A stretch of 26,907 nucleotides of DNA from a virus, in IMG/VR virus record IMGVR_UViG_3300028844_004383, positions 1 through 26,907 of that record. One strand, 5' to 3'. Of this stretch, positions 7,520-20,938 are shown in pieces. Each line of letters begins with the position of its first letter. Position 1 is the first letter of the stretch. The position numbers and the translations under genes were made by a program. Under the pieces are notes generated by a model that was given only the letters and a program-made list of their open reading frames with translations, did not search any database and was not told the DNA's origin.

Positions 7520-8542
7520 ATGAAAAACAATTTCTTAATAGAAGCTAAGTACATTAGTCTTCTCTCTAACACCTTAACTCTCTTCAAAAATAAAGGTAAT
7601 AATACCTATAACTTTAGATGTCCTATTTGTGGTGATTCAAAGAAGGATAAGCTAAAGACTAGAGGTTATCTTATCCATAAAGAGGGTACTCACTTCTTCA
7701 AATGTCATAACTGCTCTTCAAGTATGCACTTTGATAACTTTCTAAAAGAAGTTAATTCTCTTCTTTATGGAGAGTTTATATTAGAAAGTATTTCAGGTAG
7801 GGAACCTGCTGAAGAGAAACAGCGATTCAAAACTGATATCACTAAGTTTTCTAAGAGAAGGAATGATAAGTTTGTTCCGCTTAAAGAACTAAAAAAGATA
7901 TCACAATTGCGTTATGACCATAAAGCTAAAATTTATGTGGACAAACGTAAGATAGAGAACAAGTTTCATCATAAGCTCTATTACGTACCTAAGTTTAAGG
8001 AGTGGGTGAACAAACATGTTCCGGGTAAATTTGCAAATACAACTCATGATGAAGGTAGGTTACTCATACCTTTTTTCGATGAGAACGGCTATGTCTTTGC
8101 AGTACAAGGAAGATCTCTTAAACCGGACTCAAAGTTACGGTATATTACGATAATGTTTAAGGAACAGGATAAAATCTTTGGTTTAGAAAGGCTGAATTCT
8201 AACCGGACATTTTATATCTGTGAGGGGCCGATTGATTCGTTCTTTCTTGGTAATTGTGTCGCTATGGCTGGCGCAGACACTTCCTCTAAATATTCCACCA
8301 ACTCAAATGCGGTCTTCATCTATGACAACGAACCTCGGAATACTGAGATCGTTAAGAAGATGGAGAAATGTATTTCTGAAGATAAAAAGATTGTCATCTG
8401 GCCTGAATATATTGTCGAAAAAGACATGAATGATATGGTTCTGGGCGGAATTGACAGTAATGACCTGAAGTTTATAATCAAAAGTCACACCTTTTCAGGG
8501 TTAAAGGCTAAACTGGAGTTTACAAAATGGAAAAAGAGCTAA
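7520..8542 (+). CDS. 61: DNA primase, T4 gp61 type
   Basis: 340 residues, the length of T4 gp61. The N-terminal zinc-binding module has CPIC (C34, C37) and CHNC (C62, C65), preceded by NFRC and followed by the short linker usual for phage primases. The TOPRIM core is visible as YICEGPIDSFFL (catalytic Glu, about residue 237) and FIYDNEPRN (metal-binding Asp, about 268-270), with the later VEKDMNDMVL. In T4 the enzyme makes RNA pentamers for lagging-strand synthesis with helicase gp41; gp59 and gp32 are encoded at the other end of the window. GGAGG stands five bases before the ATG, and a sigma70-type promoter lies just upstream. A hairpin covering the ribosome-binding site could silence readthrough transcripts. 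Confidence 0.88.
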   Translation: MKNNFLIEAKYISLLSNTLTLFKNKGNNTYNFRCPICGDSKKDKLKTRGYLIHKEGTHFFKCHNCSSSMHFDNFLKEVNSLLYGEFILESISGREPAEEKQRFKTDITKFSKRRNDKFVPLKELKKISQLRYDHKAKIYVDKRKIENKFHHKLYYVPKFKEWVNKHVPGKFANTTHDEGRLLIPFFDENGYVFAVQGRSLKPDSKLRYITIMFKEQDKIFGLERLNSNRTFYICEGPIDSFFLGNCVAMAGADTSSKYSTNSNAVFIYDNEPRNTEIVKKMEKCISEDKKIVIWPEYIVEKDMNDMVLGGIDSNDLKFIIKSHTFSGLKAKLEFTKWKKS

Positions 8543-8721
8543 AGCAGCATATGGGTATGGTAGTAGAAGAAGGTGGTCAGATTTTGATCGCATTCAGACC
8601 CGAGACAATCAAATTTATATCGGACACGTTAGACATAAACGAGGGCGATGTTGTGATGATTGAGGGAGGTAAGGATGCAGAATCAAATGAACCAAACATC
8701 TTTATCAATAAACTAAAGTAA
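8527..8721 (+). CDS. Small protein of unknown function
   Basis: 64 residues, overlapping the primase end by 16 bases, with GGAG nine bases upstream of the ATG. The sequence alternates hydrophobic and polar residues (GQILIAFRPETIKFISDTL, then EGDVVMIEGG), suggesting a small beta-rich domain. I do not recognise it. Its place between primase and ribonucleotide reductase suggests an early nucleotide or replication context, but that is inference only. Confidence 0.65.
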   Translation: MEKELKQHMGMVVEEGGQILIAFRPETIKFISDTLDINEGDVVMIEGGKDAESNEPNIFINKLK

Positions 8722-8738: not shown

Positions 8739-10655
8739 ATGAGTAATTACCTGCCTACTCTGTATCAGCAGTATATACACCTGTCCCGTTATTCCAGATG
8801 GCTTTACGAAGAGAACCGTAGAGAGACTTGGGAAGAAACTGTGTCTCGATATTTTGATTTTTTTGAACAGCACCTCAAAGAGAATAACGGGTATATTTTA
8901 CAAAAAGATCTTCGTGATGAGCTTGAGCAAGCTGTTCTGGGTCTGGATGTAATGCCTTCGATGAGAGCTATGATGACTGCAGGTGAGGCTCTTAGAAAAG
9001 ATAACATTGCAGGTTATAACTGTGCTTTCTTGTCTATCGACAAAGCTGTTTCTTTTGATGAAGCTATGTACATTCTTATGAATGGTACGGGTGTAGGTTT
9101 CTCTGTAGAAGAAGAGTTTACTAACAAACTTGGCGTAGTGGCAGATGAGTTTAACGATACAGACACTACCATTGTTGTTGCTGATTCTAAGTTAGGTTGG
9201 GCAAAGGCTCTAAAAGAGCTTGTTGGTATGTTGTATGTCGGACAAATTCCAAAGTGGGATGTTACAAAGGTAAGACCAGCAGGTATGCCACTAAAAACAT
9301 TTGGTGGTCGTGCTTCTGGTCCAGAACCTTTAGAGGATTTGTTTAGATTCTGCGTACATATTTTCCGCCATGCTGCAGGTAGAAAGCTTACCACGCTAGA
9401 GTGTCACGATATCATGTGTAAGATCGCTGAGATCGTCGTTGTAGGCGGTGTAAGACGATCTGCACTGATTTCCCTGTCGGATCTTTTTGATGACCGTATG
9501 CGGTCTGCTAAGTCCGGTGAGTGGTATAAACATGACCTTCAAAGAGCTTTGGCTAATAATTCTGCTGCTTACAAGGAAAAGCCAGACATTGGTATCTTTA
9601 TGGATGAGTGGAAGTCTCTTTACGATTCCAAGTCTGGTGAACGGGGTATCTTTAGCAGACAGGCTGCTAAGAAGATTGTTGAGAAGAATGGTCGTAGAGA
9701 TCCAAATTATGAATTTGGCACAAATCCATGCTCAGAGATCATTTTACGATCAAGAGAATTTTGTAATCTCTCTGAGGTTGTAGTAAGACCACACGATAAT
9801 GAAGAGACCTTGGCAAAGAAAGTTCGTTTGGCGACAATCCTTGGTACTTTTCAGTCCACTTTGACGAACTTTAAATACATTTCGAAAGAGTGGAAGAAAA
9901 ACTGTGAAGAAGAAAGACTTCTCGGTGTTTCTTTGACAGGCATTGTAGATAATCCTATGATGACTCATAAGAACGATAACTTAGGAGAATTTCTTGAAGG
10001 TCTTAAAGGGGTTGCTGTACAAGTTAATGAAAAGTATTCAAGTGATATTGGCATCAATCGTTCTGCTGCTATTACTTGTGTTAAACCTTCTGGTACTGTG
10101 TCTCAGTTGGTTGATTCTGCATCTGGTATTCATGCCCGTCATAATCCTTATTACATTCGTACAGTACGTGGTGACAAGAAAGACCCGTTAACCAAGATGA
10201 TGGTTGAAGCAGGATTTCATGTTGAAGATGATGTGACAAAACCAGATTCTACATCTGTATTTTCTTTCCCTATTAAGTGTAGTGCAGATTCTGTTTTCAG
10301 AACCGATATGACTGCAATTGAACAGTTGGAACTTTGGAAAACGTATCAGGAACATTGGTGCGAACACAAGCCTTCAGTTACTATTTCTGTTAAAGAACAT
10401 GAATGGTTAGAAGTAGGTTCTTGGGTCTATGAAAACTTTGACACTATGTCTGGCGTTTCATTCCTTCCATTCTCGGACTTTGTATACAAGCAAGCTCCTT
10501 ATCAGGATTGTTCTAAAGAAGAATATGAAGAGCTTTTGGCTAAAATGCCGAAAGATGTTGACTGGAAAAGACTTTCAGAGTATGAAAAAGATGATCATAC
10601 AGTAGGCTCACAGGAGCTTGCTTGTAGTGGATCGTCAGGATGTGAGATAATCTAG
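8739..10655 (+). CDS. nrdJ: Adenosylcobalamin-dependent ribonucleoside-triphosphate reductase (class II)
   Basis: 638 residues of the monomeric class II reductase type (Lactobacillus leichmannii RTPR-like), which reduces NTPs to dNTPs with coenzyme B12 and needs no oxygen. The opening YSRWLYEENRRETWEETV is characteristic. The redox and thiyl-radical cysteines are present: C95 in GYNCAFLS, and C331 and C342 in TNPCSEIILRSREFC, the same 11-residue spacing as C408/C419 of RTPR, with N329 and E333 of the catalytic N-x-C-x-E. The C-terminal CSGSSGC is the shuttle cysteine pair. It is about 100 residues shorter than the Lactobacillus enzyme. AGGAG lies eight bases before the ATG. The glutaredoxin at 20957 is a possible electron donor. 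Use of this class implies B12 in the infected cell. Confidence 0.93.
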   Translation: MSNYLPTLYQQYIHLSRYSRWLYEENRRETWEETVSRYFDFFEQHLKENNGYILQKDLRDELEQAVLGLDVMPSMRAMMTAGEALRKDNIAGYNCAFLSIDKAVSFDEAMYILMNGTGVGFSVEEEFTNKLGVVADEFNDTDTTIVVADSKLGWAKALKELVGMLYVGQIPKWDVTKVRPAGMPLKTFGGRASGPEPLEDLFRFCVHIFRHAAGRKLTTLECHDIMCKIAEIVVVGGVRRSALISLSDLFDDRMRSAKSGEWYKHDLQRALANNSAAYKEKPDIGIFMDEWKSLYDSKSGERGIFSRQAAKKIVEKNGRRDPNYEFGTNPCSEIILRSREFCNLSEVVVRPHDNEETLAKKVRLATILGTFQSTLTNFKYISKEWKKNCEEERLLGVSLTGIVDNPMMTHKNDNLGEFLEGLKGVAVQVNEKYSSDIGINRSAAITCVKPSGTVSQLVDSASGIHARHNPYYIRTVRGDKKDPLTKMMVEAGFHVEDDVTKPDSTSVFSFPIKCSADSVFRTDMTAIEQLELWKTYQEHWCEHKPSVTISVKEHEWLEVGSWVYENFDTMSGVSFLPFSDFVYKQAPYQDCSKEEYEELLAKMPKDVDWKRLSEYEKDDHTVGSQELACSGSSGCEII

Positions 10656-12694: not shown

Positions 12695-12771
12695 CCACCC
12701 TTAGCTCAACTGGATAGAGCAATCGCCTTCTAAGCGATAGGTTTCAGGTTCGAGTCCTGAAGGGTGGGCCA
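12695..12771 (+). tRNA. tRNA-Arg (UCU)
   Basis: A full cloverleaf can be drawn. Acceptor CCACCCT/AGGGTGG, D-stem GCTC/GAGC, anticodon stem ATCGC/GCGAT with loop CTTCTAA (anticodon TCT at 12729-12731), five-base variable loop, T-stem TCAGG/CCTGA with TTCGAGT loop, discriminator G. The 3' CCA (12769-12771) is encoded. All stems are fully paired. It reads AGA, which looks like a frequent Arg codon in the surrounding phage genes. Confidence 0.95.
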
Positions 12772-12842: not shown

Positions 12843-13262
12843 ATGATACTTGGTTTGTCTGTTGGTGTTGCTGCCCTTGTTACAGGATATTCAATGTGGC
12901 GTGTGTATGATATCTTTTTTAGTGATAAGGAAGAAGAAGAAGTACCGTCCATTACTTATCTTCACGATTCAGAAATTTTTCAAGATCCTCAGATGGGGAT
13001 TGATTATAGAATCGAAGACACTCAAGGCGTCGATGCTGATAAAACACTAGAAGCAATTAATGAATGGATTCAGGAAGACGAACCTAATCTAATCACTGGT
13101 GATTACGATATTAAAGTATCCACACTTAGTAACATTGCTCTAGTAGAAATTTCTGGTGATGCCTCTTCACTATTGCTAGATTCATATAACGACGTAGAAA
13201 TCCCTTACGTTGATGGTGAGAATAATCTCGAATGGGTTAAGGTAGATATGGATTTCACATGA
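12843..13262 (+). CDS. Membrane-anchored acidic protein of unknown function
   Basis: 139 residues. The N-terminal hydrophobic segment (LGLSVGVAALVTGYSMWRVY, about 3-22) looks like an uncleaved anchor. It is followed by the acidic stretch SDKEEEEVPSI and a soluble domain with alternating strands (IKVSTLSNIALVEISGDASS). AGGAG stands six bases before the ATG. It overlaps the glycine-zipper gene by ATGA and shares its candidate late promoter, so the two probably work together at the membrane. No family is recognised. Confidence 0.7.
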   Translation: MILGLSVGVAALVTGYSMWRVYDIFFSDKEEEEVPSITYLHDSEIFQDPQMGIDYRIEDTQGVDADKTLEAINEWIQEDEPNLITGDYDIKVSTLSNIALVEISGDASSLLLDSYNDVEIPYVDGENNLEWVKVDMDFT

Positions 13263-13762
13263 TTAAGAATTTGTTAATCGGTTCTGTTTTTTTGCTTACA
13301 CCCATTAGTGCTGTAGCTGATACAGCTATGGCTACGGTAACAAACGTAATTCCTAATTGGGTAGAGGTGGTATCTTCTACTCCACAAAACGTATGTACCC
13401 TTCAAAAGGTTCCTGTTTACCAAGAAGTTCGTAAAGATGGTGCAACAGGACTTGAAGTTCTTGGTGGTGCTTTGCTTGGAGGATTTCTAGGAAAGGCAGT
13501 TACCAAAAAGGATGAAGGTGCAATCGTTGGTGGTGTTCTTGGTGGTGTTGCTGTAGCTGAAGCAAACAGAGGAACGAAAACTAGGATTATTGGCTATAAA
13601 GATGAAAAAGTTTGCAATATAGCTTACGTTGATCGTGTCAATTCTGTTATTAGCGACTACACAATTTACTACGAGTGGAATGGTTATTACGGTTCTTCTG
13701 TTGTAGGTGGTATCTATGACGTTGGTGATAATATTAAAGTTAATGTAACTTTAAGTCATTGA
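13259..13762 (+). CDS. Exported glycine-zipper protein
   Basis: 167 residues. A Sec signal peptide is clear (MIKNLLIGSVFLLTPISAVA, with cleavage likely after AVA). Residues about 68-102 form a glycine-zipper hairpin (LGGALLGGFLGKAV, GAIVGGVLGGVAVAEA), as in the 17-kDa surface antigen/SlyB-like outer-membrane families. Flanking Cys residues (QNVCTLQ, KVCNIAY) could form a disulfide. There is no lipobox, so it is probably not a lipoprotein. A phage-encoded outer-membrane or periplasmic zipper could alter envelope permeability or block superinfection (inference). Confidence 0.75.
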   Translation: MIKNLLIGSVFLLTPISAVADTAMATVTNVIPNWVEVVSSTPQNVCTLQKVPVYQEVRKDGATGLEVLGGALLGGFLGKAVTKKDEGAIVGGVLGGVAVAEANRGTKTRIIGYKDEKVCNIAYVDRVNSVISDYTIYYEWNGYYGSSVVGGIYDVGDNIKVNVTLSH

Positions 13763-13777
13763 CCTAATCAAAATAGT

Positions 13778-13853
<76 letters not shown>

Positions 13854-14888: not shown

Positions 14889-15148
14889 TGGCAGACGATT
14901 TTTTTGATTTTGGTTTTTCGGCAGTTGATGAGTCTGAGTTAGAATCTTTTCAGAAGGTAACAGCAGAAGCTGAAGAAGCTTCAGCAAGTGCCTCGACGTA
15001 TGAAGAAAAGCTAAACAAATTATACAACGCTATATCTCCTTTACTTTCTAATCTAAAAAAGAATCCTGAAAAAGATTATATCTATTGGCCTGATAGATTA
15101 GATAAAGTGGAGAAGTTCGAAGATCATATTAATAAGATTATTAGTTAG
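14888..15148 (+). CDS. Small conserved T4-like phage protein
   Basis: 86 residues: an acidic start (MADDFFDFGFSAVDESELES), a helical Ala/Glu-rich middle, and the conserved C-terminal NPEKDYIYWPDRLDKVEKF. The last motif recurs in small proteins of cyano- and pelagi-type T4-like phages. It is probably a virion or assembly component because it is the third gene of a late unit. Its stop overlaps the end of the convergent gene on the other strand by eight bases. Confidence 0.75.
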   Translation: MADDFFDFGFSAVDESELESFQKVTAEAEEASASASTYEEKLNKLYNAISPLLSNLKKNPEKDYIYWPDRLDKVEKFEDHINKIIS

Positions 15149-15692
15149 AAAGTGGATTGTCTAACGATATCTGTATTTTATCGTTCATTCTTCTTTCTAA
15201 TTCTCTCATCTCTCTATCTGTGTCTTGATATAACTGATCTCGTTTATTGTCGAATCTTTGATCAGCCAAGTCGATCATTTCTCTAATTTCTTTTTCGGAC
15301 GATCTAACATCATCTTTGAGACGGTCAACTAAGTCTTCTACTCTGATAACATCGCCCTTTAAATCGTTTCTAATATCTCTGGCGTAGTCAGTAGCCTGAA
15401 GAACTGCATCTTCAGTTGCATTCATTTGTTCTTGAATAACAGAAAGCTGCTCTTCGATACCTGAAAGATCTGGTGCAACATATGTTGTTATCATATCTTT
15501 CATATCCATGTAATCGTTGTAAACAGTGAATGCACCATAAAGACCACCAATAACAGTACTGAGAACACCAAATGCTGCACCCGCAGTAATTGCAGTGATC
15601 TTTATTCCGAGAATCTTAAACTGTTTGTTTTTAAGATTCTCAATACCATCTTCTAATTTTTCTAATTCATCGCCTAAATCTTTTTCTGCCAT
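15141..15692 (-). CDS. Membrane protein with long coiled coil
   Basis: 183 residues. Residues about 28-57 form a long hydrophobic segment (ITAITAGAAFGVLSTVIGGL and onward). The rest is a charged coiled coil (about 70-175; NDLKGDVIRVEDLVDRLKDD, EKEIREMIDLADQRFDNKRD). AGGAG lies ten bases before the ATG. It is the last gene of the leftward operon and overlaps its upstream neighbour by 19 bases. The layout (N-terminal anchor, long rod) is like spanin/holin-accessory or tail-sheath-anchoring proteins, but no family is recognised. A 12-bp perfect inverted repeat lies in its first 84 coding bases. Confidence 0.65.
   Translation of the reverse strand: MAEKDLGDELEKLEDGIENLKNKQFKILGIKITAITAGAAFGVLSTVIGGLYGAFTVYNDYMDMKDMITTYVAPDLSGIEEQLSVIQEQMNATEDAVLQATDYARDIRNDLKGDVIRVEDLVDRLKDDVRSSEKEIREMIDLADQRFDNKRDQLYQDTDREMRELERRMNDKIQISLDNPLSN
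15609..15641 (-). other. 12-bp perfect inverted repeat in 5' coding region
   Basis: GAGAATCTTAAA (15609-15620) and TTTAAGATTCTC (15630-15641) are perfect complements with a nine-base loop. It lies 52-84 bases into the leftward gene that starts at 15692. No T-run follows in the direction of transcription, so it is not a standard terminator. It could be a translation-pausing, RNA-processing or protein-binding hairpin. Confidence 0.55.
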
Positions 15693-16297
15693 TTCACAAA
15701 TGCTCCTATTCTATCATGAATGTCAGGATCTTCTATGTACTCATACCCATTTGGAGGAGACTTTTGTTGTTCTTTCCATACAGGAATAAACTCTGAGATG
15801 TTTTTGCGAAAATCAGGATTAGATCTAAAATGTACCTCAATTAGTTTTCCACCAATAAATTCGCAGTTTATTTTGGGCTTATCTTTAAACTCTTCTAATA
15901 GTTCAGGAAAGGGTACTTGATCGTCTGTTTTTACCCATCGGTCCCATTTAACAAACGTATCTTCTGACTTAATTCCTTCAACACAAAGAGACTGTTGGCC
16001 GTATTCATAATCTACTGATAGATGCCTACCCTCAAACCACTCACACCAAAAGTGACCAACATTTAGGTTTAACGTATACTTTTCAATCCAAAGTTTTTTA
16101 GCACCAAGACCAAGGCCGAGTGCGTTAACACATGGTCTAACAATATAATGATTTGGCTCTGGAACATCAGTTCCTACCGGACCACAGATGTAACCAAGTT
16201 TACGTGATAGGATAAGTTTATCCACCACCCACAGTTCATCTGGGTCCGCAGTTTTCCAATATAGATCTTCTTCTGTATCTTCGTAAATTGAAATCAT
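15674..16297 (-). CDS. Conserved marine-phage protein of unknown function
   Basis: 207 residues. DKLILSRKLGYICGPVGTDV, then NHYIVRPCVNALGLGLGAKK, form a Gly-rich strand-loop region reminiscent of nucleotide-binding folds (possibly ATP-grasp-like). FWCEWFEGRHLSVDYEYGQQ follows. The C-terminal part is Trp/Pro-rich (PVWKEQQKSPPNGYEYIEDP). The pattern is one I have seen in T4-like marine phage proteins without assigned function. No signal peptide or membrane segment is seen, unlike its neighbours. The ATG overlaps the previous stop (ATGA) and lacks its own ribosome-binding site, so it depends on translational coupling. Confidence 0.7.
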   Translation of the reverse strand: MISIYEDTEEDLYWKTADPDELWVVDKLILSRKLGYICGPVGTDVPEPNHYIVRPCVNALGLGLGAKKLWIEKYTLNLNVGHFWCEWFEGRHLSVDYEYGQQSLCVEGIKSEDTFVKWDRWVKTDDQVPFPELLEEFKDKPKINCEFIGGKLIEVHFRSNPDFRKNISEFIPVWKEQQKSPPNGYEYIEDPDIHDRIGAFVKWQKKI

Positions 16298-16623
16298 TTT
16301 TTGTTTGCTGTTAAAGCCTCTTTACCATAGAAAGCTGCAACAATAGCTGCAACAGATACAAAGTAGGTAGGTGCAATATCTTTTAAAAGACCAGATGCAC
16401 CTTCAAATCCAAGGACACTGGCTAGGATAATTGCAAATGGATAAAGTAACATTCCACCTAACGCAAACCATGCCATGTTCCTTTGTGCGTCTTGTCTCTT
16501 ATCTTCATTCTCAATCTGAATAAGCTTCTCACCTCTAGCCATTTCTTCATCGGTTAGTACACCATCACCATCAACATCGAATTGATTATATATCGAATCT
16601 TGCTGTAATGTTTTACCAGCCAT
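16294..16623 (-). CDS. EF-hand protein with two membrane segments (holin-like)
   Basis: 109 residues. A canonical calcium-binding EF-hand loop DVDGDGVLTDEE lies at residues 16-27 with all ligand positions (1, 3, 5, 12) and Gly at 6. A charged helix (EKLIQIENEDKRQDAQRN) follows, then two hydrophobic segments, about 50-70 (WFALGGMLLYPFAIILASVL) and 86-100 (YFVSVAAIVAAFYG). The short C-terminus is basic. AGGAGG stands five bases before the ATG. Small size and two membrane helices suggest a holin or membrane channel. A calcium sensor in front of it would be a way to gate activity; that is inference. Confidence 0.75.
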   Translation of the reverse strand: MAGKTLQQDSIYNQFDVDGDGVLTDEEMARGEKLIQIENEDKRQDAQRNMAWFALGGMLLYPFAIILASVLGFEGASGLLKDIAPTYFVSVAAIVAAFYGKEALTANKK

Positions 16624-16624
16624 A

Positions 16625-16855
16625 CTAGCCTCCTAAGCCTGTGCTACTAAAGGCAGAAGTGAGTTGTGGACCAAATGCTGCTGCTGCCCAAAGCATTGCA
16701 CCAATAGCACCGACTCCGATAATAACCCATTTCATTTTCATATCATCGACAGACATCTTGATGCCGATTAGTTCATTACTCAGAACTCTGAGCGAAAGCT
16801 CCATCTTGCCTTCTGGCATATCGATAGGCTGTTGAATTTCTTTCTTATTTTCCAT
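16625..16855 (-). CDS. Small membrane protein with one C-terminal helix
   Basis: 76 residues. A polar helical N-terminus (KMELSLRVLSNELIGIKMSVDDMKMK) is followed by a membrane segment at about 43-63 (WVIIGVGAIGAMLWAAAAFG) and a short Gly/Ser tail. The AAGGAG site is good. It sits between the thermonuclease and EF-hand protein genes with one-base spacing. The helix-plus-anchor layout is like a small XhlA-type holin partner and echoes the gene at 7114, but the sequences do not look related. Confidence 0.65.
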   Translation of the reverse strand: MENKKEIQQPIDMPEGKMELSLRVLSNELIGIKMSVDDMKMKWVIIGVGAIGAMLWAAAAFGPQLTSAFSSTGLGG

Positions 16856-17298
16856 TATTTTTCTCCTTCAAGAGTTATTTTACCTTCGTTTATTAGACGC
16901 TCTCTATTAGCCATATGCTGTGCATGAACGTCATCCTTGCTCTGACCATGATAAGGAACGGCATGACCCTCTTCGATAAGGATTTCTGTAGCTCTTTTTT
17001 CTTCAATCAAAAAGTCGCCAAGTATACGACCAAACTTACCTTTTGCGTCTTCTCCACTTCTATCAATTTCAGTTTTTAGAATTTGAGAAGATCCAATAGG
17101 AAGAATTTCTTTTAGTCTATCTTTACTAGCTAGGCCAAATTGTTTTTCTACTAAGTCTCTTGTTCTAGATTCTGGGGTATCAATGCCCATCATTCTAACT
17201 CTTTCTTTGTGCATCCAAACACCAAATCCAAGATCTATATCAATATCTACAGTATCACCGTCAACCACTTTAAGAATTTTGCATTTATATTCGTACAT
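16855..17298 (-). CDS. Thermonuclease (staphylococcal nuclease fold)
   Basis: 147 residues from ATG 17298, preferred because a GGAG stands six bases upstream. The ATG at 17310, which overlaps the previous stop, is the alternative. KVVDGDTVDIDIDLGF gives the first metal-binding Asp. RVRMMGIDTPESR supplies Arg35, Asp40, Thr41 and Glu43 equivalents, and GKFGRILGDF the Arg87 equivalent, so the active site is complete. The enzyme cleaves DNA or RNA with calcium. Unlike bacterial secreted homologues it has no signal peptide and should stay in the cytoplasm, even though the five genes before it encode exported proteins. Roles in host DNA breakdown or attack on competing phages are possible. Confidence 0.88.
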   Translation of the reverse strand: MYEYKCKILKVVDGDTVDIDIDLGFGVWMHKERVRMMGIDTPESRTRDLVEKQFGLASKDRLKEILPIGSSQILKTEIDRSGEDAKGKFGRILGDFLIEEKRATEILIEEGHAVPYHGQSKDDVHAQHMANRERLINEGKITLEGEK

Positions 17299-17309
17299 AG
17301 TTATCTCCA

Positions 17310-17744
17310 TTAGCCCTGAAATTGTAAGGCTCTAAGTTGTTGAATTTCTTGTTCTAGTCTCATTACTTCAAGCTGCTTTTTTCGCAGTTCAAGTTCATAT
17401 AGCCTGTTACAATCCACTCTAGACTTAGGTTTTTTGCCTAAAGGAATAATAATTCGAGCAAAGACACCAACGTCACCTACCCGTGAGTCAACGTAACCAT
17501 TCAGAGGATCTGTATATCCTCTACCAATAATTCCTGTTACGCCAAATTCTAAATTAGTAGCAGAGCCAATTGCGTTAGTGCAGTCTAGATCACCAGCTTT
17601 AAATCTGTCTGATTGGTAACTTCCCGGAGCAGTCGGTATCGATAGATTTAAAGAACTACTTGATTGTCCGAATGAGACAGAAGACCAAAACAAAATAATT
17701 ACTAGAGACAATAAAATTAGTTTAATAGAATTATATCTGTTCAT
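17310..17744 (-). CDS. Sec-exported protein of unknown function
   Basis: 144 residues from the ATG at 17744, chosen because AAGGTG lies just upstream; a start 18 bases earlier is weaker. A strong signal peptide (IKLILLSLVIILFWSSVSFG, cleavage after SFG) is followed by a Ser-rich start. The rest is a beta-rich core (LEFGVTGIIGRGYTDPLNGY, VGVFARIIIPLG) with Cys in DLDCTNAIG and VDCNRLYEL, and a C-terminal coiled coil (KKQLEVMRLEQEIQQLRAL). The pattern suggests a periplasmic or outer-membrane beta protein with an oligomerising tail. It belongs to a run of five adjacent exported-protein genes. Confidence 0.72.
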   Translation of the reverse strand: MNRYNSIKLILLSLVIILFWSSVSFGQSSSSLNLSIPTAPGSYQSDRFKAGDLDCTNAIGSATNLEFGVTGIIGRGYTDPLNGYVDSRVGDVGVFARIIIPLGKKPKSRVDCNRLYELELRKKQLEVMRLEQEIQQLRALQFQG

Positions 17745-17746
17745 AA

Positions 17747-18121
17747 CTACACCTTTGAACATATTCTAGAATCAATTCCAGATGAAACGCTGTCTTCTAA
17801 AACTCTTTTAGAAGACGTACATATGTATTCAATACGATCACAATCTATCTCTCTTAAGTAAATTTTAATAGTTTTACGACTTAAGTACGGGACGTTCACT
17901 ATTTTATAATTTGTTGCAAAAGGAATTGTTTTCCAGTCTTTGTCAAATACAGAAACCTCATAATAATCTATGTCTTTTCTTTTATTAAAAAGAGTCATAG
18001 TTGTTGTAACCACACCTTCTAGGAAGGATGGACTAAATTTAGGATAAGTGGGTGTCCATTCATGGGCATTAGCGGTAGTAGACATCAATAATGTCACTAC
18101 TGCTACAATGAAGGTCTTCAT
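17747..18121 (-). CDS. Exported PapD-chaperone-like protein
   Basis: 124 residues from ATG 18121, which overlaps the previous stop; longer readings of the frame would run into the upstream gene and hide the signal peptide. The signal peptide is MKTFIVAVVTLLMSTTANA. The mature part looks like a single immunoglobulin-like domain: TTTMTLFNKRKDIDYYEVSV, then FDKDWKTIPF, and VPYLSRKTIKIYLRE, similar to the first domain of periplasmic pilus chaperones. C-terminal Cys residues (DCDRIEYICTSS, SRICSKV) could form disulfides. It follows directly after the pilin-like gene, the usual subunit-chaperone order. The assignment rests on fold-like patterns only. Its signal-peptide coding region and its 3' part each contain a large hairpin. 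Confidence 0.6.
   Translation of the reverse strand: MKTFIVAVVTLLMSTTANAHEWTPTYPKFSPSFLEGVVTTTMTLFNKRKDIDYYEVSVFDKDWKTIPFATNYKIVNVPYLSRKTIKIYLREIDCDRIEYICTSSKRVLEDSVSSGIDSRICSKV
17792..17816 (-). other. 11-bp perfect inverted repeat with 3-base loop
   Basis: GTCTTCTAAAA (17792-17802) and TTTTAGAAGAC (17806-17816) are perfect complements around a three-base loop. It lies in the 3' part of the chaperone-like gene, 48 bases before the next start on the leftward strand. No T-run follows. An RNA processing or stabilising element between two exported-protein genes is possible. Confidence 0.55.
18071..18104 (-). other. Long imperfect hairpin within signal-peptide codons
   Basis: Positions 18071-18085 and 18091-18104 pair over 13 bases with one bulge and one mismatch around the loop CAATA. 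On the leftward transcript it begins 17 bases after the start codon at 18121. A stem this close to the start can slow early translation or be a target of regulation. Confidence 0.4.
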
Positions 18122-18618
18122 TACTTTGCAATACACTCTGCGGTTATATTTGCAGAGTACTGACCGCCCGGAAAAGACTTTCCTGCACCGTAGGATACTT
18201 CCGAATCGATCTGAAACCATACAGCACCAGACTGCGTTAGATCATATTCAGTTACGTTTTCGTATTCAACTTTATCAGTTTCGTAACCAGATTGTGCTGC
18301 ATTAGATGTCTGTGATACTGTTACTTCTCCGTCCCAATTAAGAGCATCAGTTAAAGTTGGGGAAGACGCAAACGATTGTGGCCAAGATACTTTAGCTTTA
18401 TAATAGTCTGCTGATGTAACGTCGAAACGAACGACAGGGAATATTCCTCCATCTACAGGATCTGTGCTTAACGAATCGGGAGTTGGGTTTCCATATACGC
18501 CAGCAGTATCCGTGTAAATGCTACATTTTGAGGACACGTTTCCTGTAATCGGAACATTTTCTGCACTAGAAATACCTGCTATAAAAATAGCAGATAGCAT
18601 GAAAGTAGTTCTTAACAT
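18121..18618 (-). CDS. Exported pilin-like/beta-sandwich protein
   Basis: 165 residues with signal peptide MLRTTFMLSAIFIAGISSA. The mature protein has Cys near each end (SSKCSIYTDTAGVYGNP; ITAECIAK), as in pilins and spore-coat-U-like proteins with one conserved disulfide. A beta-rich, Ser/Thr/Val-rich body lies between (FPVVRFDVTSADYYKAKVSW; GAVWFQIDSEVSYGAG), ending in FPGGQYSANITAE. GGAG lies upstream of the ATG. The adjoining downstream gene encodes a PapD-like chaperone candidate. No usher gene is visible, so if a surface fibre is made it must use host machinery or be a monomeric surface protein. The family is not firmly identified. Confidence 0.65.
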   Translation of the reverse strand: MLRTTFMLSAIFIAGISSAENVPITGNVSSKCSIYTDTAGVYGNPTPDSLSTDPVDGGIFPVVRFDVTSADYYKAKVSWPQSFASSPTLTDALNWDGEVTVSQTSNAAQSGYETDKVEYENVTEYDLTQSGAVWFQIDSEVSYGAGKSFPGGQYSANITAECIAK

Positions 18619-18621
18619 TTT

Positions 18622-19536
18622 TTATTCTCCGGTTAATTCTTCTCTATCATATTGAGAGCGTACCATAGAATAATATTTGGCACTTCGTGCCAGTTGCCTC
18701 AACGCCCTGTTATTATCAGGTAATTGTTCATCTTCGATTTCATATTTATCAGAATATTCATTACTATCAAACTCAACATCATAATATGGATTAATTAGAG
18801 TAATATTAGAAAGTTCTTTAAAGGTGTTATTCTGTTGTTTTAGGTCAATCAATCCACCAACAGAAGGGTCTGTCATTAAAAGTCTTTGAAGTTCATCGTT
18901 CGATTCTTCTAAAACAACTAAGTTTTCACTTTCGTTTTTAATACTATTTTCTTCTTGTAATTCTATCCAGTATTCGTAAAGGTCATTGTCAGAGTTTAAC
19001 TCAGTAATACTGTTTAGGTATTTATAAACAGCATCCAAAAAACCGGGACATGATGGATTTGAAAGAGGATTAATACATATTAATGAATCTTCTGCGATAT
19101 CCATTCTGTAAGAATACGTCATAGAAGGATCAGTGACAGTTCCATCACCTTCTACAGTAATGCTACCCTGACCCCATTGCTCGCCCGGTATTCCAGTAAA
19201 CCTAAAATTCTTTTGAATTGAGTTGCTTGGTAATCCTGACCAATCATCAACCTCTTCAAAAATGTAGCCACCGTTGACCGTATCTACGTTACGCACGTAG
19301 ACCTTAGCATCATCATTTGTTTCTTTTGTCATAACGTAGTAGTAGACAACACCGTTTACTTGCAATGTAACTGTTGGTGCTGAAAAGTCTGGTAGCACTC
19401 CAGTCATTGACCAAGAAAGTGCATTTTGTGCGGCGTTGTTTGTTACACCATATATACTATCCGCCCAAGAGCAACGCCAAGATGCCAACAACAACAGCAC
19501 TGCCGATGAGAGTAGTACGAGTGTCCGGGTCAACAT
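18622..19536 (-). CDS. Large exported protein overlapping the upstream gene by 80 bases
   Basis: 304 residues from ATG 19536, chosen for GGAGG five bases upstream and because it places a signal peptide (MLTRTLVLLSSAVLLLLASW, cleavage near SWA) at the N-terminus. A longer reading would add 27 residues read out of frame from the upstream gene. The mature part has beta-rich segments (TVTLQVNGVVYYYVMTKE, YIFEEVDDWSGLP, WGQGSITVEGDG), a Cys-containing CINPLSNPSCPGFLDAVYKY and an acidic C-terminal half. Its first 80 coding bases also encode the C-terminal membrane helix of the upstream gene in another frame. No function is known. Confidence 0.72.
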   Translation of the reverse strand: MLTRTLVLLSSAVLLLLASWRCSWADSIYGVTNNAAQNALSWSMTGVLPDFSAPTVTLQVNGVVYYYVMTKETNDDAKVYVRNVDTVNGGYIFEEVDDWSGLPSNSIQKNFRFTGIPGEQWGQGSITVEGDGTVTDPSMTYSYRMDIAEDSLICINPLSNPSCPGFLDAVYKYLNSITELNSDNDLYEYWIELQEENSIKNESENLVVLEESNDELQRLLMTDPSVGGLIDLKQQNNTFKELSNITLINPYYDVEFDSNEYSDKYEIEDEQLPDNNRALRQLARSAKYYSMVRSQYDREELTGE

Positions 19537-20023
19537 TAATGCCTCCACTATTTCGTGCGTCTGGTCTACGTTCTTGGTTAATGGGCTTATCCCATTCAGT
19601 TTTTGCCTGTTCGCCAATCATTCCATCGATAGGGCATGGTGTACCTGCATCCATCATAGCTGTAAAAATTCTAGGATCTTGGCACATTACTGATACTGCT
19701 GCCACCTTCATTCCCATATCATATAGTGTCTTAGCATTTTTAAGCTTTTCACAGTTCATGTCTCTGATGGTGGATCCAGCAGATATGCCAAGGATCTGCG
19801 TTTGTACAGCCCCCGAAATTCCGATTGTACATAAGTCTGAATTTGAAGAATTTATGCTTGGTGAAATAGCAGAAGGTGGTGCTGAAATTATAGTCGATGT
19901 AGATTCTGATGTTGTATCAACAGTACTTTCTGTGTAATTTTCAGTTACTATTGGATCAGTTTGTGAAAATGCAATGTTAGGAAACATGAAGAACGCTATT
20001 ACAAATAGAATCTTTTTAATCAT
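19457..20023 (-). CDS. Exported protein with C-terminal membrane helix
   Basis: 188 residues. Signal peptide MIKKILFVIAFFMFPNIAFS, then a Ser/Thr-rich low-complexity linker (about 28-65). The conserved-looking core is TIRDMNCEKLKNAKTLYDMG, followed by KVAAVSVMCQDPRIFTAM and TPCPIDGMIGEQAK, with four Cys. The protein ends in the membrane segment LIGSAVVVGILALLLGG. Two topogenic signals imply a periplasmic domain tethered to the inner membrane. The core pattern recurs in marine phages, as far as I recall, without known function. GAGG stands just before the ATG. The last 80 bases overlap the signal peptide of the next gene. Confidence 0.72.
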   Translation of the reverse strand: MIKKILFVIAFFMFPNIAFSQTDPIVTENYTESTVDTTSESTSTIISAPPSAISPSINSSNSDLCTIGISGAVQTQILGISAGSTIRDMNCEKLKNAKTLYDMGMKVAAVSVMCQDPRIFTAMMDAGTPCPIDGMIGEQAKTEWDKPINQERRPDARNSGGINVDPDTRTTLIGSAVVVGILALLLGG

Positions 20024-20032
20024 TTTATATCC

Positions 20033-20896
20033 TCAAATATCAAAAAGTTTGCGTGAGGAAATAACTTCGAAAAATGTCTTACTTTTCTGATTATTAAGAG
20101 TGTTATAATTCTTAAGGGTTATTTCAGAATAAGTTGGGCGATAATGAAGGGTTCTTTCTTTAGGAATACACAGCAATTGACCTGTAGTCTTCATTGCCTT
20201 TCTTTTTTCATCCACACGAATAGGGTTCATCTGAGGATCTTTTTCGGGTCTGGAAGAAAGCACTTGTAGCATGTCTTCTGGTGTCTTGATCGATTTTAAT
20301 TGTTTTAAGACAATTGCCATACGAGTTTCCGAAGACTTACGAGAAGCTTTTTCGTGCGGATTATCTTTATTGTTCTGATAACCAGCCCAAGGCATATCGA
20401 TACCATGATTGGTTCTTACGATACCGTCTGTCTTTTTTAGTTTTTTGAAGGTGTACTCATACTTCTTATTTGTTGTGTGATAATCTTTAAATGCTCCTTC
20501 AAGAATATAGCATTCGTTATCATCCGCAATAAGTGTGTTGCCGGGAATCTGTAGTTTAATGAGAGTATTCAACGCCGATTTTGCGGTCTTTCTAAAGAGA
20601 GCGGTTCTTATTCTGATGCCATCGGGCGCATAATATGTTCTTTCTGATTGATCGTCAGAGCCAGCAGCAACACCTTCTTTCTCATCCTTCTTGACCATGA
20701 TAGATGCAGAAAGAATAGCTACGCCATATTCATTTACACCTTCAGTATAACGTGTTTTATCGTCTTGCATATACAGTCTTTGTATACCGTTTCTATTGGA
20801 TTGTTTAATAGAAACAACAGGCTTGTAGTTACGATCTCTGTTTTTAGCAAGAACCCAACCATATTTAGGAAGATATTTTGCAACGACAACACACAT
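20033..20896 (-). CDS. N-terminal-nucleophile (Ntn) hydrolase, C45/choloylglycine-hydrolase-like
   Basis: 287 residues. Removing the initiator Met exposes Cys2 (MCVVVAKYLPKYGWVLAKNR), the nucleophile position of cysteine Ntn hydrolases. KNRDRNY brings the conserved Arg/Asp. GVNEYGVAILSASIM matches the substrate-loop Asn-Glu-Gly region, GNTLIADDNECYILEG the strand pair before the second conserved Asn, and IVRTNHGID the R-T-N-H motif. SSETRMAIVLKQL follows. Related enzymes hydrolyse acyl-amide bonds (bile salts, penicillins, acyl-homoserine lactones, isopenicillin N). There is no signal peptide, so it is probably cytoplasmic. AGGAG five bases upstream fixes the start, and a CATAAATA late-type box lies 35 bases upstream. 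It is the first gene of the leftward operon. Confidence 0.72.
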   Translation of the reverse strand: MCVVVAKYLPKYGWVLAKNRDRNYKPVVSIKQSNRNGIQRLYMQDDKTRYTEGVNEYGVAILSASIMVKKDEKEGVAAGSDDQSERTYYAPDGIRIRTALFRKTAKSALNTLIKLQIPGNTLIADDNECYILEGAFKDYHTTNKKYEYTFKKLKKTDGIVRTNHGIDMPWAGYQNNKDNPHEKASRKSSETRMAIVLKQLKSIKTPEDMLQVLSSRPEKDPQMNPIRVDEKRKAMKTTGQLLCIPKERTLHYRPTYSEITLKNYNTLNNQKSKTFFEVISSRKLFDI

Positions 20897-20930: not shown

Positions 20931-20938
20931 TATTTATG
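20931..20938 (-). promoter_or_regulatory. Late-promoter-like box CATAAATA for the leftward operon
   Basis: On the leftward strand this reads CATAAATA, seven of eight bases of the T4 late consensus, 35 bases before the Ntn hydrolase ATG. It is the only recognisable promoter-like element in front of the eleven leftward genes, although CATAAATA also occurs inside genes at 5676 and 24824. Confidence 0.4.

Follow-up and report, generated by a model that had tools for sequence, protein, structure and literature searches.

Chaperone–usher pili (PapD/FimC, CfaA/CfaB, CsuC-CsuA/B) are among the described systems closest to a gene cassette, A-B-Pil-Chap-Beta-TMCC, that we analysed in the virus record IMGVR_UViG_3300028844_004383, whose 26,907 bases are referred to here as the window. 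The cassette resembles these pili in encoding a protein with a PapD-type fold (Chap) beside a pilin-like subunit of immunoglobulin (Ig) type (Pil), in the donor-strand-like N-terminus of that subunit, and in conserved cysteine pairs. However, no usher was found, Chap has one domain rather than two, there is no Pfam or NCBIfam match over cut-off, and Beta has no named family. Donor-strand fibres that form without an usher are known from the CanA cannulae, in which an Ig-like subunit polymerises; these are archaeal, with no outer membrane and no PapD-like chaperone. The closest parallel in the literature is curli (type VIII secretion), in the form of the pelagiphage modules. In the portions of the published reports available to us, pelagiphages carry curli surface-fibre genes (PMC9599517, PMC7029224), and sibling capture, protection from superinfection and lysis control are proposed as roles of the module (PMC7029224, PMC9599517, PMC9004378). 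As far as these portions go, curli offer a parallel in that marine myo- and podophages carry a gene set for surface fibres, whereas the cassette encodes Ig-type beta proteins instead of amyloid repeats, and the 10 operon products scanned contain no Pfam match to CsgG, CsgF or curlin. The curli module of HTVC008M lies within about 8 kilobases (kb) of gp59 and gp32, and the window's counterparts of these two genes lie about 3.5-4 kb from the cassette. We propose, with a probability of roughly 0.45, that the six-gene core encodes a late, usher-less chaperone/pilin system that would assemble a fibre or scaffold within the envelope of the host. The initial annotation of the window had presented the set as undescribed, and we found no description of a phage-coded pilin/chaperone set in the accessible parts of the open-licence PMC literature.

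The cassette is part of a leftward operon of eleven open reading frames (ORFs), all of which exist as first annotated, on the minus strand and tightly packed head to tail from 20896 to 15141. Other products of the window (DNA primase-like, ribonucleotide reductase, PhoH-like, helicase loader and single-strand DNA binding protein) point to a T4-like phage. Using IMG/VR viral contigs, we kept the best 80 of 261 relatives for Beta, the best 80 of 161 for Chap and the best 80 of at least 600 for A, whose relatives occur in at least 600 stretches of viral contigs, while the search with B yielded 24 viral loci. Because only the best-scoring relatives were kept, the counts lean toward close relatives. 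De-duplication through shared k-mers left 172 of 251 sequences, the window and bacterial loci included, and gene order was counted from the best plus-strand copy of each family, leaving out the cultured-phage loci L033, L034 and L039. Beta or Chap is present in 85 non-redundant viral contigs. Of these, 74 hold A, B, Pil, Chap, Beta and TMCC in that order; the remaining 11 comprise six without TMCC, two without Beta and TMCC, and three that lack between one and three of the leftmost genes, and no other gene order is present in the 85. B comes after A in 82/82 contigs holding both. The search with A added 63 further non-redundant loci, 46 with A-B-Pil-Chap-Beta (45 of these also with TMCC) and 13 with shorter runs of A, B, Pil and Chap. 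Thus, the gene neighbourhood is kept across marine viral contigs. The flanks of the cassette are window-like in L007-L012, L024, L027 and L030, and other backgrounds are present elsewhere in the B-search set. In the 82 loci that hold both A and Chap, TMCC occurs 74 times, SNase 25, TM76 31, EF 32, p3577 8 and Ntn 9. The initial annotation had treated all eleven genes as one system, which is ruled out by the variation of the last five between relatives; the six others form the core.

Chap (17747..18121, minus strand) is 124 amino acids (aa) long with its signal peptide. Its AlphaFold2 model is all beta, with a predicted local distance difference test score (pLDDT) of 90.8 and a predicted template-modelling score (pTM) of 0.77. 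The first five rows of a Foldseek search are PapD-family chaperones with template-modelling (TM) scores of 0.54-0.62, the best being DraB (E value 2.7e-4, TM 0.62), and VIA gives a Z score of 11.0 to both FimC (98 residues, 2.8 Å) and DraB (96 residues, 2.3 Å). The single domain aligns to FimC residues 1-113. As modelled, Chap clearly belongs to the PapD/MSP class of the Ig fold, and the narrower assignment as a PapD-like periplasmic chaperone is supported by the rank of these matches and by the pilin-like neighbour; the chaperone-like fold named in the initial annotation agrees with the model and with both structure searches. Cys101 and Cys121 are invariant in the 80 rows counted, viral and bacterial. 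Position 123, near FimC 112 by the aligned ends, is Lys or Arg in 65/65 viral and 14/15 bacterial rows, while position 26 is Tyr in 62/65 viral and Arg in 10/15 bacterial rows; these residue counts, and those for Pil below, cover 65 of 66 viral Chap rows and 59 of 60 viral Pil rows, L180 being left out. We take Arg8 and Lys112, in PapD-type numbering, to be the cleft residues of such chaperones. Searching PDB sequences with profiles of Chap, Pil and Beta returns nothing significant, the best match being an antibody light chain (E 0.039). A match of Chap to T5 Llp in the PDB sequence search (E 1.1) was treated as chance.

Pil (18121..18618, minus strand; 165 aa) is modelled by AlphaFold2 with pLDDT 91.9 and pTM 0.79. 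Its best Foldseek match is CfaB of CFA/I pili at E 5.4e-4, but with a TM score of 0.39 and a root-mean-square deviation of 12.9 Å; further rows include the PapG pilin domain, a subunit of the FimD-tip complex, CsuA/B and CanA. A fold search of BFVD with Pil gives nothing at 1e-3 or better, the best match being 1.3e-3. From the model, Pil can be called Ig-like with confidence, and the likeness to pilins reported in the initial annotation has moderate to weak support. The donor strands of chaperone–usher pilins typically contain alternating hydrophobic residues with a glycine. The mature N-terminus of Pil mostly reads V-x-I/F-x-G-x-V up to Cys32, and both Cys32 and Cys162 are invariant in viral rows. 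Position 24 is hydrophobic in 59/59 viral and 16/16 bacterial rows, Gly26 is present in 59/59 viral and 15/16 bacterial rows, and position 28 is hydrophobic in all, while at position 22 a hydrophobic residue is found in all bacterial rows and in 61% of the viral ones.

Pil, Chap and Beta are also found side by side in bacteria. Beta relatives are present in 69 bacterial loci, 55 of them titled Mesorhizobium and others including Photobacterium, Hellea, Pontixanthobacter and Qipengyuania; 68 loci were counted, leaving out L242, which has no Beta label. Pil lies upstream of Beta in 63/68 loci, with a second Pil following in 58, a Chap relative ends at Beta in 66/68, and the three stand together in 62/68. 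Seven of these loci supplied the sequences for the bacterial Chap profile, the gap ORFs of L186 and L243 having been dropped beforehand. At a threshold of 1e-5, this seven-sequence profile matches 34 non-bacterial loci, the lowest value being 1.5e-8, and the five of these matches that were inspected are Chap ORFs. Phage-only profiles likewise reach bacteria, with values of 8e-20 for Beta, 3.1e-6 for Pil and 1.4e-4 for Chap, and alignment of phage to bacterial profiles using hhalign gives 95.8% (E 6.6e-9) for Chap and 79% (1.6e-5) for Pil, with mismatched control pairs at 0.4, 2.1 and 0.3%. A search of phage records yields 23 matches to Beta, located in jumbo phages of Klebsiella type and in Vibrio phages. 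A three-sequence profile of the Chap-like genes of the jumbo phages and a Vibrio phage matches Chap at 96.1%, and the Pil match of the Vibrio phage is near the limit (E 0.0011). The Mesorhizobium locus is flanked by an Ada-like and a ribokinase-like gene (by reading); both are found in 55/69 loci, and the triplet therefore sits at a fixed chromosomal place in this genus. That location argues against ordinary virion or tail parts, as do the signal peptides on five products and the presence of a PapD-like chaperone. Although triplet-like genes of a Vibrio siphophage lie near head-tail genes and a late promoter motif would suit virion components, we consider this explanation very improbable. In Photobacterium L182, Pil-like and Chap-like genes were recognised by reading, the latter scoring only 0.095 and being missed by the bacterial profile; genes for a secreted protein of 313 aa and for an EAL-type protein lie with these triplet-like genes (7668-8609 and 9402-10169; by reading).

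We examined export signals, promoters and selection across the operon. Sec-type signal sequences are seen by reading at the starts 20023, 19536, 18618, 18121 and 17744, that is, in A, B, Pil, Chap and Beta, bearing out the five signal peptides of the initial annotation. A crude signal-peptide rule is positive in most viral relatives of the five (A 80/82, B 76/82, Pil 79/82, Chap 78/82, Beta 77/80) and in none of those of SNase (0/25) and p3577 (0/8). The rule is loose and does not separate a transmembrane segment from a signal peptide, being positive also for TM76 (30/31), EF (21/32), TMCC (53/74) and Ntn (7/9) and in 452/1500 background ORFs. Computation thus finds Pil, Chap and Beta to look exported and to be conserved together. 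When compared with the relative L010, the ratio of nonsynonymous to synonymous substitution rates is 0.035 for Beta, the lowest among nine genes computed, 0.069 for TMCC, 0.088 for Pil, 0.10 for A, 0.115 for Chap and 0.25 for B, values that are rough because synonymous differences are near saturation. The leftward genes are real, selected genes. A late-promoter-like box, CATAAATA, precedes the leftward operon before Ntn (20931..20938, minus strand, read from 20938 to 20931). The late-type box of the initial annotation is therefore present, with one mismatch to TATAAATA, which we take to be the T4 late promoter consensus. Exact copies of TATAAATA are found at the A ORF start, from 150 base pairs (bp) before to 30 bp after it, in 56/81 relative loci, and 37 of these 56 sites stand 21-50 bp before the start; about 0.02 per locus would be expected by overall density.

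The initial annotation had offered superinfection exclusion, host-surface remodelling and cell-cell contact as possible functions. The late motif bears on superinfection exclusion or receptor masking, in which the secreted proteins would coat or remodel the cell exterior and keep other phages from binding. As a rule, genes for exclusion are early ones, and the motif therefore speaks against such a role, which the five secreted products would suit, as would the outer-membrane-protein-like, porin-like (both by reading) and PagP-like (PHROG 1.7e-9) genes near the cassette in some loci. PADLOC-DB contains no match for A, B, Pil, Chap or Beta, a negative that is weak against exclusion because the library covers bacterial defence. 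On balance, we regard exclusion as improbable. A known anti-phage defence system is ruled out by the same lack of PADLOC-DB matches for the five proteins.

Beta (17310..17744, minus strand; 144 aa, secreted) matches phrog_37374 (3.5e-5), a family of unknown function. It has two amphipathic strands followed by a C-terminal amphipathic helix and contains two invariant cysteines. Across 83 viral and 68 bacterial sequences, hydrophobic residues alternate in the two strands, at 71-75 and about 98-108, and the helix region shows a repeating hydrophobic pattern. That Beta would form a pore is a tentative inference. In agreement with the missing usher of the initial annotation, none of the 10/11 operon products scanned by Pfam (TM76 left out) has an usher match, and reading of four bacterial loci out to about 5.5 kb showed none. 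The usher family PF00577 is over cut-off in 3/9 bacterial genomes, at coordinates other than the locus. We suggest that Chap would bind Pil and escort it in the periplasm, that the mature N-terminus of each Pil would serve as the donor strand completing the next Pil, and that Pil would in this way polymerise into a fibre or lattice. With least certainty, Beta might oligomerise in or under the outer membrane and there take the place of an usher, as an exit pore or as an anchor; B might act as an adhesin or cap, and A and TMCC might hold the assembly to the inner membrane and cell wall. Going by the pelagiphage curli modules, the most probable product is a fibre of the surface or envelope, made on the infected cell at a late stage. 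A more far-reaching proposal, which we hold to be unlikely, is that Pil-Chap-Beta represents an undescribed usher-less pilus pathway common to phages and bacteria, with Beta oligomers as outer-membrane exit or anchor, and that phages, adding A, B and TMCC, would use it to build fibres just before lysis and so capture neighbours or hold progeny.

The three remaining core proteins extend the comparison to other phages. A (19457..20023, minus strand; 188 aa) is a secreted four-cysteine domain with a hydrophobic C-terminus that matches phrog_20531 (7.4e-15, function unknown). B (18622..19536, minus strand; 304 aa) is secreted, overlaps A and has 24 relatives in viral contigs. TMCC (15141..15692, minus strand; 183 aa) consists by reading of an N-terminal transmembrane segment and a coiled coil, and its relatives include HTVC115P gp49 and CRP-207 gp73. 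A relatives are present in 11 phage records, six of them pelagiphages including the myophage Mosig. In these records, A is followed by another protein, of 187 to 611 aa and in most cases secreted, and by a transmembrane-coiled-coil protein (by reading); Mosig and HTVC033P carry A, B-type and TMCC-type genes only. Because B has no tblastn match there, its counterpart is assigned by position, by the signal peptide and by a C-terminus of similar appearance; among five podo-/myophage B-type proteins there is one weak carbohydrate-binding-module hint (PF02018, 0.0089). In Baldr and HTVC202P, these A-B-TMCC-type sets directly precede the large terminase gene; in S28-C10, two small genes lie between the set and that gene. 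The set adjoins an M15 peptidase in HTVC023P and a holin-like protein (by reading) in Mosig, and in HTVC033P a lysozyme is close by. Neighbours of the cassette in the 82 loci include relatives of a Hydrolase_2 endolysin (cell-wall hydrolase) in 23, a class 3 lipase in 10 and outer-membrane-protein-like products (by reading) in 17.

The repeated placement of A-B-TMCC-type sets next to genes for lysis or terminase makes a role in the lysis phase the main rival and a serious one; the initial annotation had not listed it. A, B and TMCC would then form an alternative or extra spanin-like complex, and a scaffold of Pil, Chap and Beta would weaken or reshape the outer membrane. The late promoter motif fits this possibility, and TMCC resembles the two-component spanins (Rz/Rz1) in having the shape of an inner-membrane coiled-coil spanin (by reading), and in several podophages the A-B-TMCC-type sets are close to genes for lysis or terminase. 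In contrast to such spanins, the cassette has no visible lipoprotein partner, as no lipobox was seen in A or B by reading, and TMCC has no spanin PHROG match at E 1. An Rz-like and an Rz1-like gene already stand together beside the cassette in 5/82 loci (L029, L054, L138, L155 and L177; PHROG matches checked for L138 and L177 only). The Pil-Chap-Beta triplet is chromosomal in bacteria, which also counts against a lysis role, and we know of no lysis function of a PapD-like chaperone or pilin. We therefore view lysis-phase envelope disruption as possible, though doubtful. A spanin as the whole answer is ruled out by the five loci with their own Rz-like/Rz1-like pair.

Several results weigh against a chaperone/pilin system. 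No usher was found in the cassette, and Beta is at most a putative pore. In VIA, a CsxA Ig domain (Z 10.7) ties with the chaperone rows of Chap, and MSP domains come close (from 10.1). The fold matches of Pil are weak, as the TM score of 0.39 at 12.9 Å for CfaB illustrates, and the staphylococcal adhesin SdrE is at rank 3; in VIA, the best Z scores of Pil (7.7) are to Ig adhesin domains of staphylococcal FnBPA and SdrD, with CanA at 6.1, and according to the tool, Z at this level may reflect only a common arrangement. Residues 20-31 of Pil are coil in the AlphaFold2 model, and because of this and of the 61% of viral rows with a hydrophobic position 22, the proposed donor strand is a matter of pattern evidence. 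The Pil-like genes of the Klebsiella jumbo phages are not confirmed by profile (7%), position alone suggesting them, and Pil, Chap and B have no relatives in 50,697 phage records (tblastn, E 0.1). In four loci (L275, L307, L311, L315), A and TMCC were found, in three cases together with B, but no Pil-Chap-Beta triplet. Set against the overall interpretation in the initial annotation, the fold of Chap, the conserved neighbourhood and the lack of an usher stand, the fold of Pil is plausible, and the unity of the eleven genes does not hold. If the six-gene core does encode an usher-less chaperone/pilin system, such a set would be present in lytic marine phages, where only curli-type fibre genes are reported in the literature portions accessible to us, and several protein families that are without function in the libraries used would gain a role. 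The bacterial triplet occurs in culturable species, making the usher-less exit of pilin-like subunits from the periplasm directly testable.

The remaining genes of the operon, all on the minus strand, are accessory or variable. Ntn (20033..20896; 287 aa) is N-terminal-nucleophile-hydrolase-like, and the hydrolase assignment of the initial annotation comes down to a hint, since the Pfam AAT match exists at E 0.011, below cut-off. The annotated thermonuclease, SNase (16855..17310), is a real staphylococcal-nuclease-like protein (PF00565, 3.7e-11) without a signal peptide. In PADLOC-DB, SNase matches the SNc+LTD model at 1.2e-7, and TMCC has weak matches of 0.005-0.009. The protein p3577 (15674..16297) belongs to phrog_3577 (E 5.3e-49), of unknown function. 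TM76 (16625..16855; 76 aa) has one transmembrane segment by reading, and EF (16294..16623; 109 aa) has, also by reading, an EF-hand-like loop and two transmembrane segments, with Pfam EF-hand matches near 0.003, below cut-off. EF shares 62% identity with gp72 of the roseophage CRP-207, and would be an unusual case if it were a calcium-sensing holin.

Some annotations in related phages concern the same families. CRP-207 gp73 (L004:3292-3873) and CRP-810 gp51 (L031:7156-7578) are annotated as lysozyme and match TMCC or are transmembrane plus coiled-coil-like, while CRP-810 gp53, annotated 'OmpA family', is an A-type protein. In ctXG6705, an unannotated A-type ORF (L003:7767-8273) precedes a gene that carries the annotation 'transport protein tonB', and HTVC115P gp46 (L005:13131-13580), annotated as a toxin-activating lysine-acyltransferase, lies about 5 kb from A. 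Near the cassette in other loci are a class 3 lipase (L147:6022-6744; PF01764, 5.9e-24), with relatives about 0.9 kb past the cassette in 10/82 loci, and two outer-membrane-like proteins (L102:10390-10734 and L076:823-1617), one PagP-like (PHROG 1.7e-9) and one porin-like (by reading). Outside the operon, the window encodes a secreted protein with a glycine-zipper-like stretch (13259-13762; by reading), with relatives in 7/82 loci, as well as tRNA-Arg (tct) at 12695-12771 and tRNA-Thr (tgt) at 13778-13853.

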